A stretch of 64,000 bases of DNA from Thermotoga caldifontis AZM44c09 (lineage in GTDB: Bacteria; Thermotogota; Thermotogae; Thermotogales; DSM-5069). Below the pieces are notes generated by a model, which had not been told where the DNA came from, made no database searches, and saw only the letters and a program-made list of their open reading frames with translations. Every line of letters begins with the position of its first letter. Positions within the stretch are counted from its first letter, which is position 1. Both the position numbers and the translations under genes were made by a program. Shown piece after piece: positions 160 through 60,918 of this stretch. The DNA lies in NCBI RefSeq assembly GCF_000828655.1, contig NZ_AP014509.1, forward strand, positions 1,116,001 to 1,180,000, read 5' to 3'.

Positions 160-986
160 GAAAGACTCTCAAAGCCGTTTTCTTCTACGTGTTCTGTACG
201 CTCATCGTGGTACTCTGGATGGTCCCGTTGGTGGTGGCGTTCTTCACCGCCTTCAAAACGATGGACGAGATCTTCATGCTCAGAAACTTCTGGGCTCCTC
301 CAAAAACCTGGACTTTCGAGAATTTCAAGATCGCCTGGACTGAAGGCCGCATGGCGCGTTACTTCGTGAACACCGCCATTGTAACTGCAGCTTCTGTCGC
401 TGGCACGCTGTTCCTTTCGAGCCTGAGCGCGTTCGCACTCGCCTGGTACGAGTTCAAACTGCGTTCACTCATTCTGATGATCTTCGTTTCGGGCATGCTG
501 ATACCTTTCCAGATGCTGCTCATTCCGGTCTACAGATTTTCCGTCGTGACGGGTCTGTACGACACGTTGATCGGAGTGATACTGTTCCATATTGCCTTTC
601 AGCTGGGTTTTTGCACATTCTTTTTGCGGAACTTCATGGTGACGATACCAACCAGCCTCTTCGATGCCGCGAGGATCGATGGTGCGAGCGCTTTCAGGAT
701 ATATTCGAAGATCATCATGCCGCTGGTGAAACCTGCCGTTGCTGCCCTCAGCATCCTCGAGTTCACCTGGATATGGAACGATTATCTCTGGTCTCTGATA
801 CTGCTCCAGAGTGACGCCAAGAAGACCGTCACGATAGGTCTCACCACCCTGCAGGGCCAATGGATCAGCAGCTGGAACATCATAGCCGCTGGGGCGTTGC
901 TCGCCGCCACAGTTCCTGTTATAGTTTTTCTGATCTTCCAGCGATACTTCATCCAGGGTCTGACTCTGGGTAGCGTTAAAGGATGA
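156..986 (+). CDS. Sugar ABC transporter permease, MalG type
   Basis: Inner-membrane permease of a carbohydrate (CUT1) ABC importer, 276 residues, the usual MalG length. An N-terminal membrane segment (about residues 8-30) is followed by several more. The cytoplasmic EAA loop is visible at about 169-195 (DAARIDGASAF...MPLVKPA), the site that contacts the ATPase. The start ATG overlaps the stop of the preceding permease and its own stop overlaps the next gene, so translation is coupled. No ATPase gene is present; CUT1 systems commonly share one encoded elsewhere. The binding protein is presumably upstream of the window. Substrate is inferred from the neighbouring GH42 enzyme. Confidence 0.93.
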   Translation: MRKTLKAVFFYVFCTLIVVLWMVPLVVAFFTAFKTMDEIFMLRNFWAPPKTWTFENFKIAWTEGRMARYFVNTAIVTAASVAGTLFLSSLSAFALAWYEFKLRSLILMIFVSGMLIPFQMLLIPVYRFSVVTGLYDTLIGVILFHIAFQLGFCTFFLRNFMVTIPTSLFDAARIDGASAFRIYSKIIMPLVKPAVAALSILEFTWIWNDYLWSLILLQSDAKKTVTIGLTTLQGQWISSWNIIAAGALLAATVPVIVFLIFQRYFIQGLTLGSVKG

Positions 987-56634: not shown

Positions 56635-57396
56635 TTGACACAGACTACCGTGCTTTTCGACAACGGCACTCACAAATTCTACTTCCTTGGATGGGAGGAG
56701 AAAGAGGAAGAGATCGTTCAGACGAACCAGTACCTGATCGTGGATGGGAACGAAGCGGTGCTGCTCGATCCAGGCGGAGCACACGTCTTTCCAAGGGTCT
56801 TGGCGAACGTGTCAGAGATAGTGGATCCATCGAAGATAACTCACATATTCTATACCCACCAGGATCCCGACGTGACCAGCGGAATAATCCTGTGGCTTTC
56901 CATAGCCGAAAACAGCAAGGTTTACATCTCGAACCTGTGGGTGCGCTTTCTGCCGCATTTCGGCGTTTTCGATCAGAGGAGGATCGTACCGATACCAGAC
57001 CACGGAGACACGATCAGGTTCAAGAGCGGAAACGTTCTGGAGATCATACCGTCGCACTATCTGCACTCGACGGGAAACTTCACGCTCTACGATCCGACGG
57101 CGAAGATCCTCTTTTCCGGAGACATCGGAACGTGCGTCTTTCCCGCCGGTAGAAGGTACAGAGAGACCGAAGATTTCGAATCGCACGTGAAGAACATGGA
57201 GCTGTTCCACAGAAGGTACATGACCAGCAACGTTGCCTGCAGAAAGTGGGTCGATATCGTTTCGAAGAAGCAGATAGAGCAGATCGCACCACAGCACGGA
57301 GCGGTCATGAAGGGCGGCTGCGTTCAGAAGTTTTTCCAGTGGCTCAGGGAACTCAGGTGCGGAATTGATCTGATCGATCAGTTCTACGGGAAGTGA
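56635..57396 (+). CDS. Oxygen-binding diiron protein (ODP), flavodoxin-less FprA-like metallo-beta-lactamase fold
   Basis: 253 residues: only the diiron metallo-beta-lactamase half of flavodiiron proteins, without flavodoxin. Ligand candidates are H75, D77, D79 (HQDPDV), H144 (SHYLHSTGN), D163 (SGDIGTC) and H221 (APQHGAVM). The residue after D79 is Val instead of the His of flavodiiron reductases. Such proteins from Thermotoga and Treponema (ODP) bind oxygen and act as chemotaxis sensors, and the next gene is a cytoplasmic chemoreceptor. TTG at 56635 lies eight bases after AGGAGG; GTG at 56626 overlaps that site. Confidence 0.85.
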
Positions 57397-58235
57397 TACC
57401 TGTGGACAGAAAAACGTTCGAAAAGATCTCTTCAGCGTTCTTCGCAGAGAATCTGATGACCAGCTTCATGAACCAGCTCGATGAGGCGCTCGTTTCGAGG
57501 GTGATCGATCTGCAGAAACAGATCGGCTCCGTTATGGAAAATTTTTCTAAGATGAGCCAAGAGCTTACGGAGCTTCAAGAACAGTTCTCCAGGGACAGCG
57601 AGGCGCTCTCTTTGGCCTTCGAATCCATCAAGAAAATGAACGACGAGATGCAATCACAGCTTTCAAGATCCGGTGCGAGCCTGGAACATGCGAGTGAAAG
57701 GTTCGACAGCGCCCTGGATCAGACGTCCAGAACGATCGAGAGCTTCAAAGAGACGCAGAACATGGTCGAGAAAATCAACAACATCGCGAAACAGACCAAG
57801 CTTTTGGCGCTGAACGCTTCCATAGAAGCCGCGCGGGCGGGTGAGCACGGACGCGGTTTCGCGGTGGTGGCTGCGGAGATACAGAAGCTCGCGGGGGAAT
57901 CGAGCAGCGCGGCGCAGGAGATAACGAAGAAGGTGCAGCAGTTGAGCGAGATGATAGAGAAATCCCTGGAAGGTTTGAAGACCGTCGGGGAACTCTTCGA
58001 ACTGTTCAGGGGCTCCACGGAACAGATGCTTTCTTTCCTGAAACAGAACGCGGAGCTCATCGTTCAGGCGAGGAGGACCTTCGAACAGGCAGAGGAAAAT
58101 TTCGAAAGCCAGAAACGTTCGATAGAAGAAACGCACAGAGTTCTCAGCAGCGCCAACGAGAAGTTCGACGCGATGCTCAGAGTTATAAGGTCTGTGGTCA
58201 GGGCACAACAGAAGTTGAAGGATGTGAGGCTGTAG
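57393..58235 (+). CDS. Cytoplasmic methyl-accepting chemotaxis protein
   Basis: 280 residues with no membrane segment. Almost entirely coiled coil; the receptor hairpin tip reads [22 protein letters not shown], then [19 protein letters not shown]. It lacks a recognisable N-terminal sensor domain, so the sensing unit must be supplied by another protein, most likely the ODP encoded immediately upstream (stop/start overlap GTGA at 57393). GTG at 57402 is an alternative start. It would couple oxygen to CheA/CheW signalling. Confidence 0.9.
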
Positions 58236-58342
58236 GTCTGGTAGATCCATCTTGTCACGAACCGGCCGAACGAGCCGTGAAGATGCTTTGCGAACGAACG
58301 AGTCTTTGGGAGCTTCGAAGATCGCAGGTTGGTTGAGATCGG

Positions 58343-58371
58343 TTGTGTTTCGTTTTTTGCTTTGATATACT
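58343..58371 (+). promoter_or_regulatory. Promoter of the archaeal-type ATPase gene
   Basis: -35 TTGTGT (58343-58348), 17-base spacer, -10 TATACT (58366-58371). The -10 overlaps the first of two operator palindromes. The preceding 58236-58342 shows nothing further. Confidence 0.75.
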
Positions 58372-58406
58372 ATCAGTGGTGATAGTAACTATCAGGGGTG
58401 ATAGTT
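58368..58406. promoter_or_regulatory. Two abutting perfect palindromes (operator) over promoter and ribosome binding site
   Basis: TACTATCA-GTGG-TGATAGTA (58368-58387) and AACTATCA-GGGG-TGATAGTT (58387-58406), each with perfect 8-bp arms and centres 19 bp apart. The first covers the -10 element, the second covers the AGGGGTG ribosome binding site and ends at the start codon. Repression at DNA level, or RNA hairpins blocking translation, would both fit. Confidence 0.8.
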
Positions 58407-59494
58407 TGCTGTTCGATCCACAACCGAAGAGCAACCGCGACGATCTCTACGATAGAGAAGAGGAACTGAAACAACTACAGCTCAGCGAAGAACCCATCGT
58501 ACTGATACTGGCTCCCAGGAGGTTCGGGAAGACTTCCCTGTTGAAGGTGTTCTTATCCGAAACGGACAGGCCCAGCGTTTTCTTCGATTGCAGATCGATC
58601 TCCGTGAACACCGCGAAGGAAGACTTCCTCCTGAGCTTCGTTCGCCAGGTTGGGAAGTTGGTGGAAACCTACAGTTCCTTCATGAACTTTCTCAGGCGGA
58701 TCAGGGGCTTGAAGGTGTTCGGTATGGAGATCGCGCTCGCCGACGAGAGGAAACCAGACCCTGTGGAGGTTTTGGAGAAACTCGACGACTGGGCCGAGCG
58801 TCAGGAAAAGAAGCTCGTTTTAGCTTTCGATGAAGTTCAGTTTCTGAGGTTCCTCAGGAAAGCCGGCGGGATCGATCTTCCTCGTTTGCTCGCTTACGCC
58901 TACGACAATCTCAAAAATCTGCAGTTCATCATGACGGGTTCCGAGGTGGGTATCCTTGAAGATTTTCTCGCTCTCGAAAATCCGAATTCACCACTCTACG
59001 GAAGGTACGTGAGAGAGATCCACGTCCCACGGCTCACGCCCGAACAGTCCAAGGACTTTCTCATCAAAGGGTTCGCCCAGTACGGGCTGAAAGTTCCAGA
59101 AGACGCGATCGAGGCCGCTGTGAGGAGGCTGGACGGAATAATAGGCTGGCTCGTTCACTTCGGCAAGCGGACCCTCGATTTGGGCGCGCCGAACGAAAGG
59201 ATCCTGGAGCAGATCGTGCAAGAAGCGAAGCAAGCGGTGCTGCAGGAACTGGAGAAAATCTTCCAGCTGAGTGAGAGGTACAGGCACGTTCTCAGAGCCG
59301 TCGCGCTGGGCTTACACACATGGAATGATATCAAAGAGGCTGTGGAGATGAAAGAGAGGATGAAGCTGACCGACACATCGTTCAACAGGATCATCAGCAA
59401 GCTGGTCAAGATGGGTTACCTTGAAGTGGAACGCGGCGAAAAGAATCAATATTTCATCATCGATCCTGTGGTCAGAGAAGCTATGATAGATTGA
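58406..59494 (+). CDS. Archaeal-type ATPase (PF01637-like) with C-terminal winged helix
   Basis: 362 residues. The start LLFDPQPKSNRDDLYDREEELKQL (N-terminal: LFDPQPKSNRDDLYDREEEL) is typical of archaeal ATPases. Walker A is PRRFGKTSL (near 40), Walker B LVLAFDEVQFL, sensor region FIMTGSEVGIL. A helical C-terminus (MKLTDTSFNRIISKLVKMGYLEVERG) resembles a winged helix that could bind DNA. TTG at 58406 is chosen because of AGGGGTG just upstream; earlier GTG codons lie inside the palindromes. Function of this STAND-like family in bacteria is poorly known. Its last bases adjoin the patB leader. Confidence 0.83.
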   Translation: MLFDPQPKSNRDDLYDREEELKQLQLSEEPIVLILAPRRFGKTSLLKVFLSETDRPSVFFDCRSISVNTAKEDFLLSFVRQVGKLVETYSSFMNFLRRIRGLKVFGMEIALADERKPDPVEVLEKLDDWAERQEKKLVLAFDEVQFLRFLRKAGGIDLPRLLAYAYDNLKNLQFIMTGSEVGILEDFLALENPNSPLYGRYVREIHVPRLTPEQSKDFLIKGFAQYGLKVPEDAIEAAVRRLDGIIGWLVHFGKRTLDLGAPNERILEQIVQEAKQAVLQELEKIFQLSERYRHVLRAVALGLHTWNDIKEAVEMKERMKLTDTSFNRIISKLVKMGYLEVERGEKNQYFIIDPVVREAMID

Positions 59495-59553
59495 TTGAAA
59501 ATTTAACCCGTCTGTGGCACAGCCACTCGCAAGCTGAGGAAGGAGGAAAACGC

Positions 59554-60708
59554 GTGTCGATCGAGTTCGTCGAGAGGGATGGTACGAACTGTGTCAAGTA
59601 CGACGCAATAAGGGCAAGGTACGGCGATGACGTCATGCCTGCCTGGATCGCGGACATGGACGTTAAGGTGTGCGATCGCATGGTCGAGGCGTTCAAAAAG
59701 AGAGTTGAACACGCGGTCTTCGGTTACACGTTCAGACCGGAGGAATACTACGCGGCGATAGTTGACTGGTACGGAAAAAGGCACGGCGTTTCGATCCAGA
59801 AGGAATGGATCATCGATGGACCGGGCGTGATGCCGATGATGGCGTTGCTTGTGAATCTCCTCACCGAACCGGGCGATGGGATCGTCGTACAGCCACCGGT
59901 CTATCCACCATTTTTCAACGTCATCAGGAGGAACAAAAGAATCGTCGTGGAGAACAAGCTCAAAAAGTTGAACGAAAAGTACGTCATGGACCTTGAGGGA
60001 TTAAAGAAGCTGTTGTCCCATCACAAGGTCAAACTGCTGATCCTTTCCAACCCGCACAATCCTGTTGGAAGGGCGTGGACGTACGGAGAGCTGAAAGAGC
60101 TGTCGGAAATTTGCTCGAAACACAACGTGACGATCATCAGCGATGAGATACACGCAGACATCGTGTACGAACCGTTCAGGTTCACTTCGATGCTGAAGGT
60201 GGGACTTCAGAACGTGATCGTTCTCAGCTCGGCGGGAAAGAGTTTCAACGTTCCGGGCCTGACGAACGGTTACGGGATCGTTCCAGACGAGAAGATCAGA
60301 AAGCTTTACAACGAAGCTCTCGAAGCCTTCGAACTCACGACACCGAACATCTTCGGAACGCTCGCCCTGCAGATCGCTTACACATCCTGCGAAGCGTGGT
60401 TCAAAAGCCTGCTGGAAAAACTTCGCGAAAACAGAGACTTCGCTTACCGCTTTGTGAAAGAGAAGATGCCGCTGATCGACGTCGTTTTACCCGAGGCGAC
60501 GTTTCTGATGTGGCTCGATTGTTCCAAGCTGGGTTTAGAAAATCCGCACAGATTCTTCCTCGAAAAGGCGAGGGTGTATCTGAACAACGGCGCAGACTTC
60601 GGCGAGCCGATGGGTGTGAGGCTGAACTTCGCCTGCTCCATGGAGAACCTGAAAAGAATACTCGAAGCGATGAAGAAGGCTTACGATTCGATCGTGAACC
60701 GTACCTGA
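59554..60708 (+). CDS. patB: PatB/MalY-type cystathionine beta-lyase (PLP-dependent C-S lyase)
   Basis: 384-residue class I/II aminotransferase-fold enzyme. MPAWIADMDVKVCDRMVEA and FGYTFRPEEYYAAIVDW near the N-terminus, NPHNPVGRAWTYGEL, and the PLP lysine in LSSAGKSFNVPGL (about 229) match PatB/MalY. Cleaves cystathionine or cysteine conjugates to thiol, pyruvate and ammonia. GTG at 59554 follows AGGAGGAAAACGC; the in-frame extension to 59491 lacks a good site and would overlap the ATPase gene. Confidence 0.9.
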   Translation: MSIEFVERDGTNCVKYDAIRARYGDDVMPAWIADMDVKVCDRMVEAFKKRVEHAVFGYTFRPEEYYAAIVDWYGKRHGVSIQKEWIIDGPGVMPMMALLVNLLTEPGDGIVVQPPVYPPFFNVIRRNKRIVVENKLKKLNEKYVMDLEGLKKLLSHHKVKLLILSNPHNPVGRAWTYGELKELSEICSKHNVTIISDEIHADIVYEPFRFTSMLKVGLQNVIVLSSAGKSFNVPGLTNGYGIVPDEKIRKLYNEALEAFELTTPNIFGTLALQIAYTSCEAWFKSLLEKLRENRDFAYRFVKEKMPLIDVVLPEATFLMWLDCSKLGLENPHRFFLEKARVYLNNGADFGEPMGVRLNFACSMENLKRILEAMKKAYDSIVNRT

Positions 60709-60749
60709 CGACACGATGACACGCAACGTGTGAACGTGTGGCTCAGGAA

Positions 60750-60781
60750 GAAAAAAGCGAAAAACCCGCCACCTGGCGGGT
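60750..60781 (-). terminator. Terminator after tRNA-Leu
   Basis: On the minus strand ACCCGCC-AGGT-GGCGGGT is followed by TTTTCGCTTTTTTC. It starts two bases beyond the tRNA CCA. Confidence 0.88.
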
Positions 60782-60782
60782 C

Positions 60783-60873
60783 TGGTGCCGAGGGCGGGAG
60801 TCGAACCCGCACGAGGGGGTCAACCCTCAACTGATTTTGAGTCAGTCGCGTCTGCCAGTTCCGCCACCTCGGC
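60783..60873 (-). tRNA. tRNA-Leu (anticodon CAA)
   Basis: Class II tRNA with long variable arm on the minus strand. Acceptor GCCGAGG/CCTCGGC, anticodon loop CTCAAAA (CAA), T-loop TTCGACT, encoded CCA. It lies downstream of the AEC transporter gene on the same strand. Confidence 0.95.
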
Positions 60874-60918
60874 GCTCACTGAAATTTTATCACACACACC
60901 TGTCCGGTTCAAGTGAAT

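Follow-up and report, generated by a model that had tools for sequence, protein, structure and literature searches.

Tandem inverted repeats at the start of a Thermotoga caldifontis ATPase gene covary with the recognition helix of the encoded ATPase

At the start of an ATPase gene in Thermotoga caldifontis, two inverted repeats lie in tandem over the putative promoter and the ribosome-binding site. At up to two mismatches the pair occurs only once in the genome, its architecture recurs before related genes in bacteria and archaea, and the bases of its arms vary across the family together with residues of the recognition helix of the ATPase itself. Sequence comparison strongly supports recognition of the operator by its own ATPase, and we regard it as highly probable that the protein binds its tandem operators and represses itself, with nucleotide or ligand state tuning its affinity.

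Paired repeats at the start of the ATPase gene

The repeats were found in a 64-kb stretch of the chromosome, which was analysed as a whole and is called the window here; positions are counted from its first base (Table 1). Each repeat is an inverted repeat with 8-bp arms and a 4-bp centre, of which the core ACTATCA-N4-TGATAGT makes up 18 bp. Base 58387 is common to both operators, giving a period of 19 bp, and the last base of operator 2, 58406, is also the first T of the TTG start codon. The first-pass annotation had described two perfect 20-bp palindromes. Inverted repeats sharing one base are indeed present, but they are not perfect, the centres (GTGG in operator 1 and GGGG in operator 2) not being palindromic. 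Its further proposal, that compensating outer bases reveal selection for symmetry, had to be given up: there is just the single shared outer base, A58387, which pairs with T on either side, and across the family the outer base and the linker are complementary in 71 of 141 members on the left and in 51 of 141 on the right. That the repeats cover the -10, the start region and the ribosome-binding site of the ATPase gene can be read from the sequence, as the same annotation had stated.

A search of the 2.01-Mb genome for ACTATCA-N4-TGATAGT, which had been suggested as a check, returned this pair alone at up to two mismatches. The window itself holds the two exact sites and one more, found only at three mismatches. 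A scan of the window for 18-bp palindromes paired at a distance of 19 bp gave this pair a tandem score of 21 out of 21, and no other place scored above 15.

Table 1. Features at the start of the ATPase gene and in its product, in window coordinates
Feature	Position	Strand	Remarks
Operator 1 (distal), T-ACTATCA-gtgg-TGATAGT-A	58368..58387	+	Read directly; kept before orthologues
Operator 2 (proximal), A-ACTATCA-gggg-TGATAGT-T	58387..58406	+	Read directly; kept before orthologues
Extended -10, TGaTATACT	58363..58371	+	Consensus by eye; its closing ACT doubles as the first three bases of operator 1
Shine-Dalgarno-like GGGGTGA	58395..58401	+	G-rich centre of operator 2 together with the first bases of the right arm
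ATPase gene, TTG start, 362 aa	58406..59494	+	Relatives align from this start
PF01637 ATPase domain	58448..59155	+	57.7 bits, cut-off 33.2
C-terminal winged-helix domain, residues 289-349	59270..59452	+	PF21100 (MCM_C winged HTH), 31.2 bits, cut-off 27
Residues 322-328 (T-D-T-S-F-N-R), N-terminal part of the recognition helix	59369..59389	+	Strongest operator association

A longer open reading frame, beginning at 58343, would run through both operators. In the encoded ATPase the Walker A residues (RRxGKTS: R38, R39, G41, K42, S44) and the Walker B residues (DE: D142, E143) are invariant in 50 aligned members. The AlphaFold2 model of the protein (mean pLDDT 91.7, pTM 0.88) ends in helices 290-300, 306-317 and 323-336 followed by a two-strand wing, the usual order of a winged helix, and agrees with the PF21100 match above cut-off in bearing out the winged-helix-like C-terminus noticed in the first-pass annotation. 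By its position, helix 323-336 would be the recognition helix; residues 322-328 open this third helix in the model.

Conservation of the pair across the ATPase family

Loci of the family were collected from named genome records (77 loci), from a search of Thermotogota and from two archaeal classes, part of the archaeal matches being fetched; 334 loci with a usable start gave 270 members with distinct first 150 residues. Matches at E <= 1e-40 were present in 41 of 103 Thermotogota genomes, and those at E <= 1e-80 in 71 of 115 genomes of the Thermococci class and 68 of 147 of the Thermoproteia-type class.

An identical pair precedes the orthologues in G004 (94% protein identity) and in G021 (47%, a genome of another family), and a tandem palindrome pair (score at least 15.5 of 21) stands at the gene start in 211 of the 270 distinct members, from Thermotogota, Caldisericota and Archaea. 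The pair is thus conserved before orthologues and in most of the family; the outcome named beforehand as refuting, a lack of conservation before orthologues, did not arise, and the suggestion that such repeats mark a family of ATPase loci proved correct. The exact build seen in the window, with 4-bp centres and a 19-bp period, is shared by 153 of the 211 pair-bearing members, and the commonest distal start is -38, which corresponds to two 19-bp units abutting the start codon. In an earlier subset of 80 members, the tandem score exceeded all 60 dinucleotide shuffles in 60. Many of the 59 members below the score show degenerate pairs by eye; no clear operator pair was found at the start of L011, and none at the start of L021 (in G040), which is intact and has a helix of the ACTTCCG type, GDSRLYS.

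Arm sequences vary by subfamily, with 33 versions among the 142 members used for covariation below; orthologues of the same build carry ACTTCCG, ACTCAA, AGTATCG, AGTAATG, ACTTACG, AGTTACA and more. Comparison of the regions upstream of related ATPase genes, another check proposed at the outset, therefore gave a divided answer: the architecture and its match to the protein are kept, but the arm sequence itself, which the first-pass annotation had expected to recur, diverges.

Several loci depart from the common arrangement. Four head-to-tail copies of AGTATCGGGGGCGATACT, not two, precede the gene of a Thermococcaceae member (L083), and a paralogue in the T. caldifontis genome (L024) has three operator copies. 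One in-frame TGA interrupts L008 of G021, which retains intact operators and the helix TDTSFNR; L020 of G010 contains in-frame stops, one TAG and two TAA. In the Thermococci members L298-L308, whose helix is DDKNF or DDRNF, the usual pair is absent and an outward-facing CCACCAGTAACTGGTGG-like half-site pair lies directly before the start. Since these members have only the outward-facing CCACCAGTAACTGGTGG, the dimer unit is unsure; their arrangement suggests that the dimer may sit on the half-site junction and not on each palindrome.

Covariation of operator bases with the recognition helix

If the ATPase reads its own operator, variation in the arms is expected to track the recognition helix in preference to other regions of the protein. 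For 142 of the 270 members (4-bp centres, 19-bp period, score at least 16.5 and a protein of at least 335 aa; about 59 effective sequences at 70% identity), each base of the half-site was compared with all alignable columns of the protein by mutual information weighted for relatedness. For base 2, residue 323 (D323 in the window protein) ranks first of all alignable columns, with 0.98 bit and a Z of 10.2, the next column having 3.5. Residue 322 (T322) comes first for bases 4 and 5 (Z 5.0 and 4.8), and residue 325 (S325) for base 7 (Z 3.8). Bases 1, 3, 6, 8 and 9 are not accounted for by the helix.

With residue classes defined after the table was seen, Asp or Glu at 323 goes with C at base 2 in 81 of 81 members, as does the single Gly, and Asn, Lys or Ser goes with G in 59 of 60. 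Arg at 325 goes with G at base 7 in 74 of 74 members and Lys with C in 11 of 11. Pairing of Asp with cytosine, and of Arg or Lys/Asn with guanine, represents ordinary contacts; Lys325 with C would mean a contact to the G on the opposite strand. The Caldisericum locus L070 has the helix SNQTLSN with AGTCAAC, and L017, L084 and L089 have TDQTLSN with ACTCAA, which, as judged from the sequences, is apparently a one-residue, one-base switch within one helix type.

Members left out of the table offered a further comparison, which drew on 84 of the 128 others but skipped 12 that lacked a readable register. Here Asn or Lys at 323 occurs with G in 19 of 19 members and Asp with C in 36 of 41; five Ser, two Thr and one Pro occur with C, and three Ser and one Pro with G. 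These members are related to the 142, so the comparison is not fully independent. Four exceptions (L009, L082, L239 and L352) resemble register errors by eye and were counted as exceptions.

The association is strongest at the helix. In a partial correlation with operator distance from which ATPase-domain distance was removed (the 142 thinned to 76 members under 75% identity), window 322-328 came first of 354 protein windows, with r 0.39, while windows before residue 300 had a mean of 0.005, a standard deviation of 0.055 and a maximum of 0.147. On the ATPase-domain tree, the class of residue 323 changes four times, base 2 four times and their joint state also four times, hence all these changes coincide. 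Independent changes are few, and the sign test on supported branches, whose three pairs all agree (p 0.25), is too small to become significant. For Arg325 and base 7 there is one supported pair, concordant in 0.8 of pairings; for residue 322 and base 4 there are eight pairs, on average 5.1 concordant and none opposed (median p 0.06). The first-pass annotation had raised autoregulation through the winged-helix C-terminus, and this idea gains considerably from operator bases that covary most with the ATPase's own recognition helix. Autoregulation and the marking of a family of loci, offered there as alternatives, both hold up and come down to one phenomenon.

The same data bear on the possibility that the repeats are recognized by another DNA-binding protein, through which the ATPase genes would be controlled. 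A regulator of some kind normally occupies operators that overlap a promoter, and binding by the ATPase is a prediction. Under an outside regulator, though, one would not expect the arm bases to follow the ATPase recognition helix more closely than any other part of the protein, nor the paralogues of a single genome to have separate operators, and no neighbouring gene that might encode it is conserved across the 77 loci. We consider such a regulator improbable, if still the best of the alternatives to recognition by the ATPase itself.

Paralogues, further sites and genomic neighbourhood

Six family members in G133 have six different helices and six different operators. In T. caldifontis (G000), the window gene combines ACTATCA with the helix TDTSFNR, and a paralogue at 226 kb combines ACTTCCG with SDSRLYS. 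A single regulator shared by all paralogues is unlikely, the operators differing within one genome. A third PF01637 protein of comparable size that scores above cut-off in the genome (L035), which belongs to another subfamily, has no such pair in the 120 bases upstream of its start.

Across the 45 genomes of the order, exact sites of the ACTATCA type occur at eight places, six before orthologues and two (in G023 and G024) in a homologous open reading frame, and those of the ACTTCCG type also at eight, seven before family ATPases and one (in G031) inside an open reading frame. At this strictness, the gene's own start is consequently the only target; weaker sites elsewhere are possible. The single exact sites of G023 and G024 were considered as operators and rejected: they lie inside a small open reading frame after an MCP gene and are read as coding sequence. 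At positions 1501-1518 of loci L029 and L030, a single ACTATCA-N4-TGATAGT follows the same MCP gene that precedes the ATPase gene of the window; it is probably a chance occurrence within coding sequence, odd though the shared surroundings are.

A comparison of positions 57393-60900 with L398 and L399 showed that the MCP and PatB neighbours of the window ATPase are kept in G003. In that genome the other flank of PatB carries a family ATPase with ACTTCCG-type operators, placed between PatB and a tRNA-like sequence. In G005, PatB adjoins flagellin and the family ATPase is absent. The family is distributed patchily, being present in 21 of the 45 genomes of the order, and this distribution together with the G003 arrangement makes horizontal movement of a single ATPase gene with its operator plausible. 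Among the 77 loci, no conserved neighbour gene was found; recurring non-family open reading frames are antisense readings of the ATPase or genes common to three to five Thermococci loci at the same place.

Could the repeats be element ends, an integration target or replication iterons, with the ATPase acting as an Orc1/Cdc6-like initiator of a small mobile unit? Outside the family, the closest folds are those of Cdc6/Orc1 proteins that are bound to origins or act on them, and the patchy occurrence and the ATPase of another operator class across the same PatB gene in G003 fit a mobile unit as well. Repeats occur, however, at the 5' end only, none being reported at the 3' end, and the NCBIfam ORC1-type model gives 13.3 bits against a cut-off of 354. 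Searches of plasmid DNA with the window start region, and of plasmids with a Thermococci member, gave no match; viral matches to the family were confined to one viral contig. In PADLOC, the window protein had no confident match to a defence model, its best being PDC-S01 (E 1.2e-5), across 46 residues only; the match of the Thermococci member L092 was PDC-S27 (E 2.9e-12). With neither a conserved partner gene nor a plasmid match, and one viral contig, the mobile element envisaged in the first-pass annotation finds little to recommend it, and we judge the mobile-initiator explanation very improbable.

Promoter and ribosome-binding site

The overlap of TATACT with the operator is retained in L004, L058, L061 and L153. 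A sigma-70 scan, which requires a -35, called no promoter at the window gene; the best -35-like hexamer, TTGTGT at 58343, matches in only three of six positions. The scan result follows from the lack of a good -35, and the window promoter is thus a reading by eye. Among the 122 members whose pair abuts the start, 90 have GGGG as their proximal centre and 24 have GTGG; over all 142 members the commonest distal centres are GGGG (41), GTAC (29) and CCCC (18). The pair directly adjoins the start codon in most members and, in archaea, comes after a TATA-like stretch; in the ACTTCCG class of Thermotogota (e.g. L012, L022, L024) it lies just upstream of a TATAAT-like -10. Either placement would be expected to block a promoter.

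These placements also bear on whether the repeats act as RNA, forming tandem hairpins that hide the ribosome-binding site as a thermosensor or riboregulator. Operator 2 would fold as an 8-bp hairpin with GGGG in its loop, and the segment 58372-58440 has a folding energy of -22 kcal/mol (z -2.40). RNA hairpins, on the other hand, would not require the two copies to share their arms or to correspond to a protein helix, and the repeats of the ACTTCCG class, being upstream of the -10, would not be transcribed; we find this explanation more improbable still than a mobile initiator. Chance inverted repeats without function deserve next to no credence: one pair alone could be a curiosity, but a pair that is conserved over phyla and domains and is the only such place in 64 kb refutes this reading.

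Discussion

Our preferred reading remains that the ATPase recognizes its own tandem operators. Under this model, the C-terminal winged helix would read the half-site ACTATCA with residues 322-328 of the recognition helix, and the four half-sites of the two 18-bp palindromes would hold two dimers or one tetramer. Bound there, the ATPase would lie over the -10, transcription start and ribosome-binding site of its own gene and so shut it off, which would amount to negative autoregulation. The affinity probably depends on the state of the ATPase domain, whether in its ATP or ADP form or with a ligand. Physical binding, its stoichiometry, repression as the sign of regulation and control by nucleotide are what we infer from the arrangement of the site and the domains of the protein.

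A wider proposal is that the solitary ATPases of hyperthermophilic bacteria and archaea form a large, ancient family of one-gene circuits. Each member would recognize its own operator only, following a code in which residue 323 specifies base 2, residue 322 bases 4-5 and residue 325 base 7; paralogues would work without cross-talk, and an Orc/NLR-like ATPase cycle would gate the switch. We offer this tentatively, as a serious prospect that stops a little short of being probable.

To our knowledge, no function has been assigned to these ATPases despite two solved structures. The covariation predicts DNA targets for more than 100 family ATPases, including the protein of PDB 2QEN. It also yields a naturally occurring collection of heat-stable helix-operator pairs that differ from one another, with 33 arm sequences, and a bacterial-archaeal example of a promoter architecture that is kept while its sequence diverges.

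The closest known proteins are those of PDB 2QEN (Pyrococcus abyssi PABY2304) and 2FNA (SSO1545), which belong to the same family over their full length (hmmsearch E 2e-136 and 2e-101) and match the fold of the window protein, including the C-terminal winged helix, with TM-scores of 0.85-0.90. No DNA is mentioned in the titles of either PDB entry. The gene of 2QEN is L249 in G133, with one mismatch in 347 residues, and its tandem operators are ACTTATGccccCGTAAGT and ACTTATGgtggCGTAAGT; ACTTATGccccCGTAAGTcACTTATGgtggCGTAAGT is accordingly marked out as the predicted DNA target of the P. abyssi protein. In 2FNA the helix reads ISDSEIYNYL, a type that is accompanied by ACTTCTA/ACTTCTG arms in this family. 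A tandem self-operator with a residue-base code was not found for this ATPase family in the literature searched, which consisted mostly of papers outside subscription and included parts of PMC5760070 and PMC4599002.

Two other kinds of protein resemble the window protein more distantly. STAND/NLR-type ATPases (Apaf-1, plant NLRs, MalT) are matched by Foldseek with TMq of 0.44-0.61; unlike them, the window protein ends at the winged helix and has no sensor repeats or effector domain. Orc1/Cdc6 initiators, the nearest fold outside the family, likewise join an AAA+ domain to a winged helix, but the window protein does not reach the ORC1-type family model and its two repeats lie on a promoter, not in an origin array.

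In regulatory design, the nearest counterparts are negatively autoregulated winged-helix repressors, and those with tandem palindromic operators are a general, known kind. They too have an operator over their own promoter, palindromic half-sites and covariation of helix and operator. Unlike the usual winged-helix repressors, the gene described here is solitary and in no operon, has no further target sites at the strictness searched, and encodes a putative DNA reader joined to an AAA+/STAND-like ATPase. Both the family and the winged helix were already known; what appears to be new, in the literature searched, is the proposed tandem self-operator with its residue-base code, in an unusual, ATPase-fused form.
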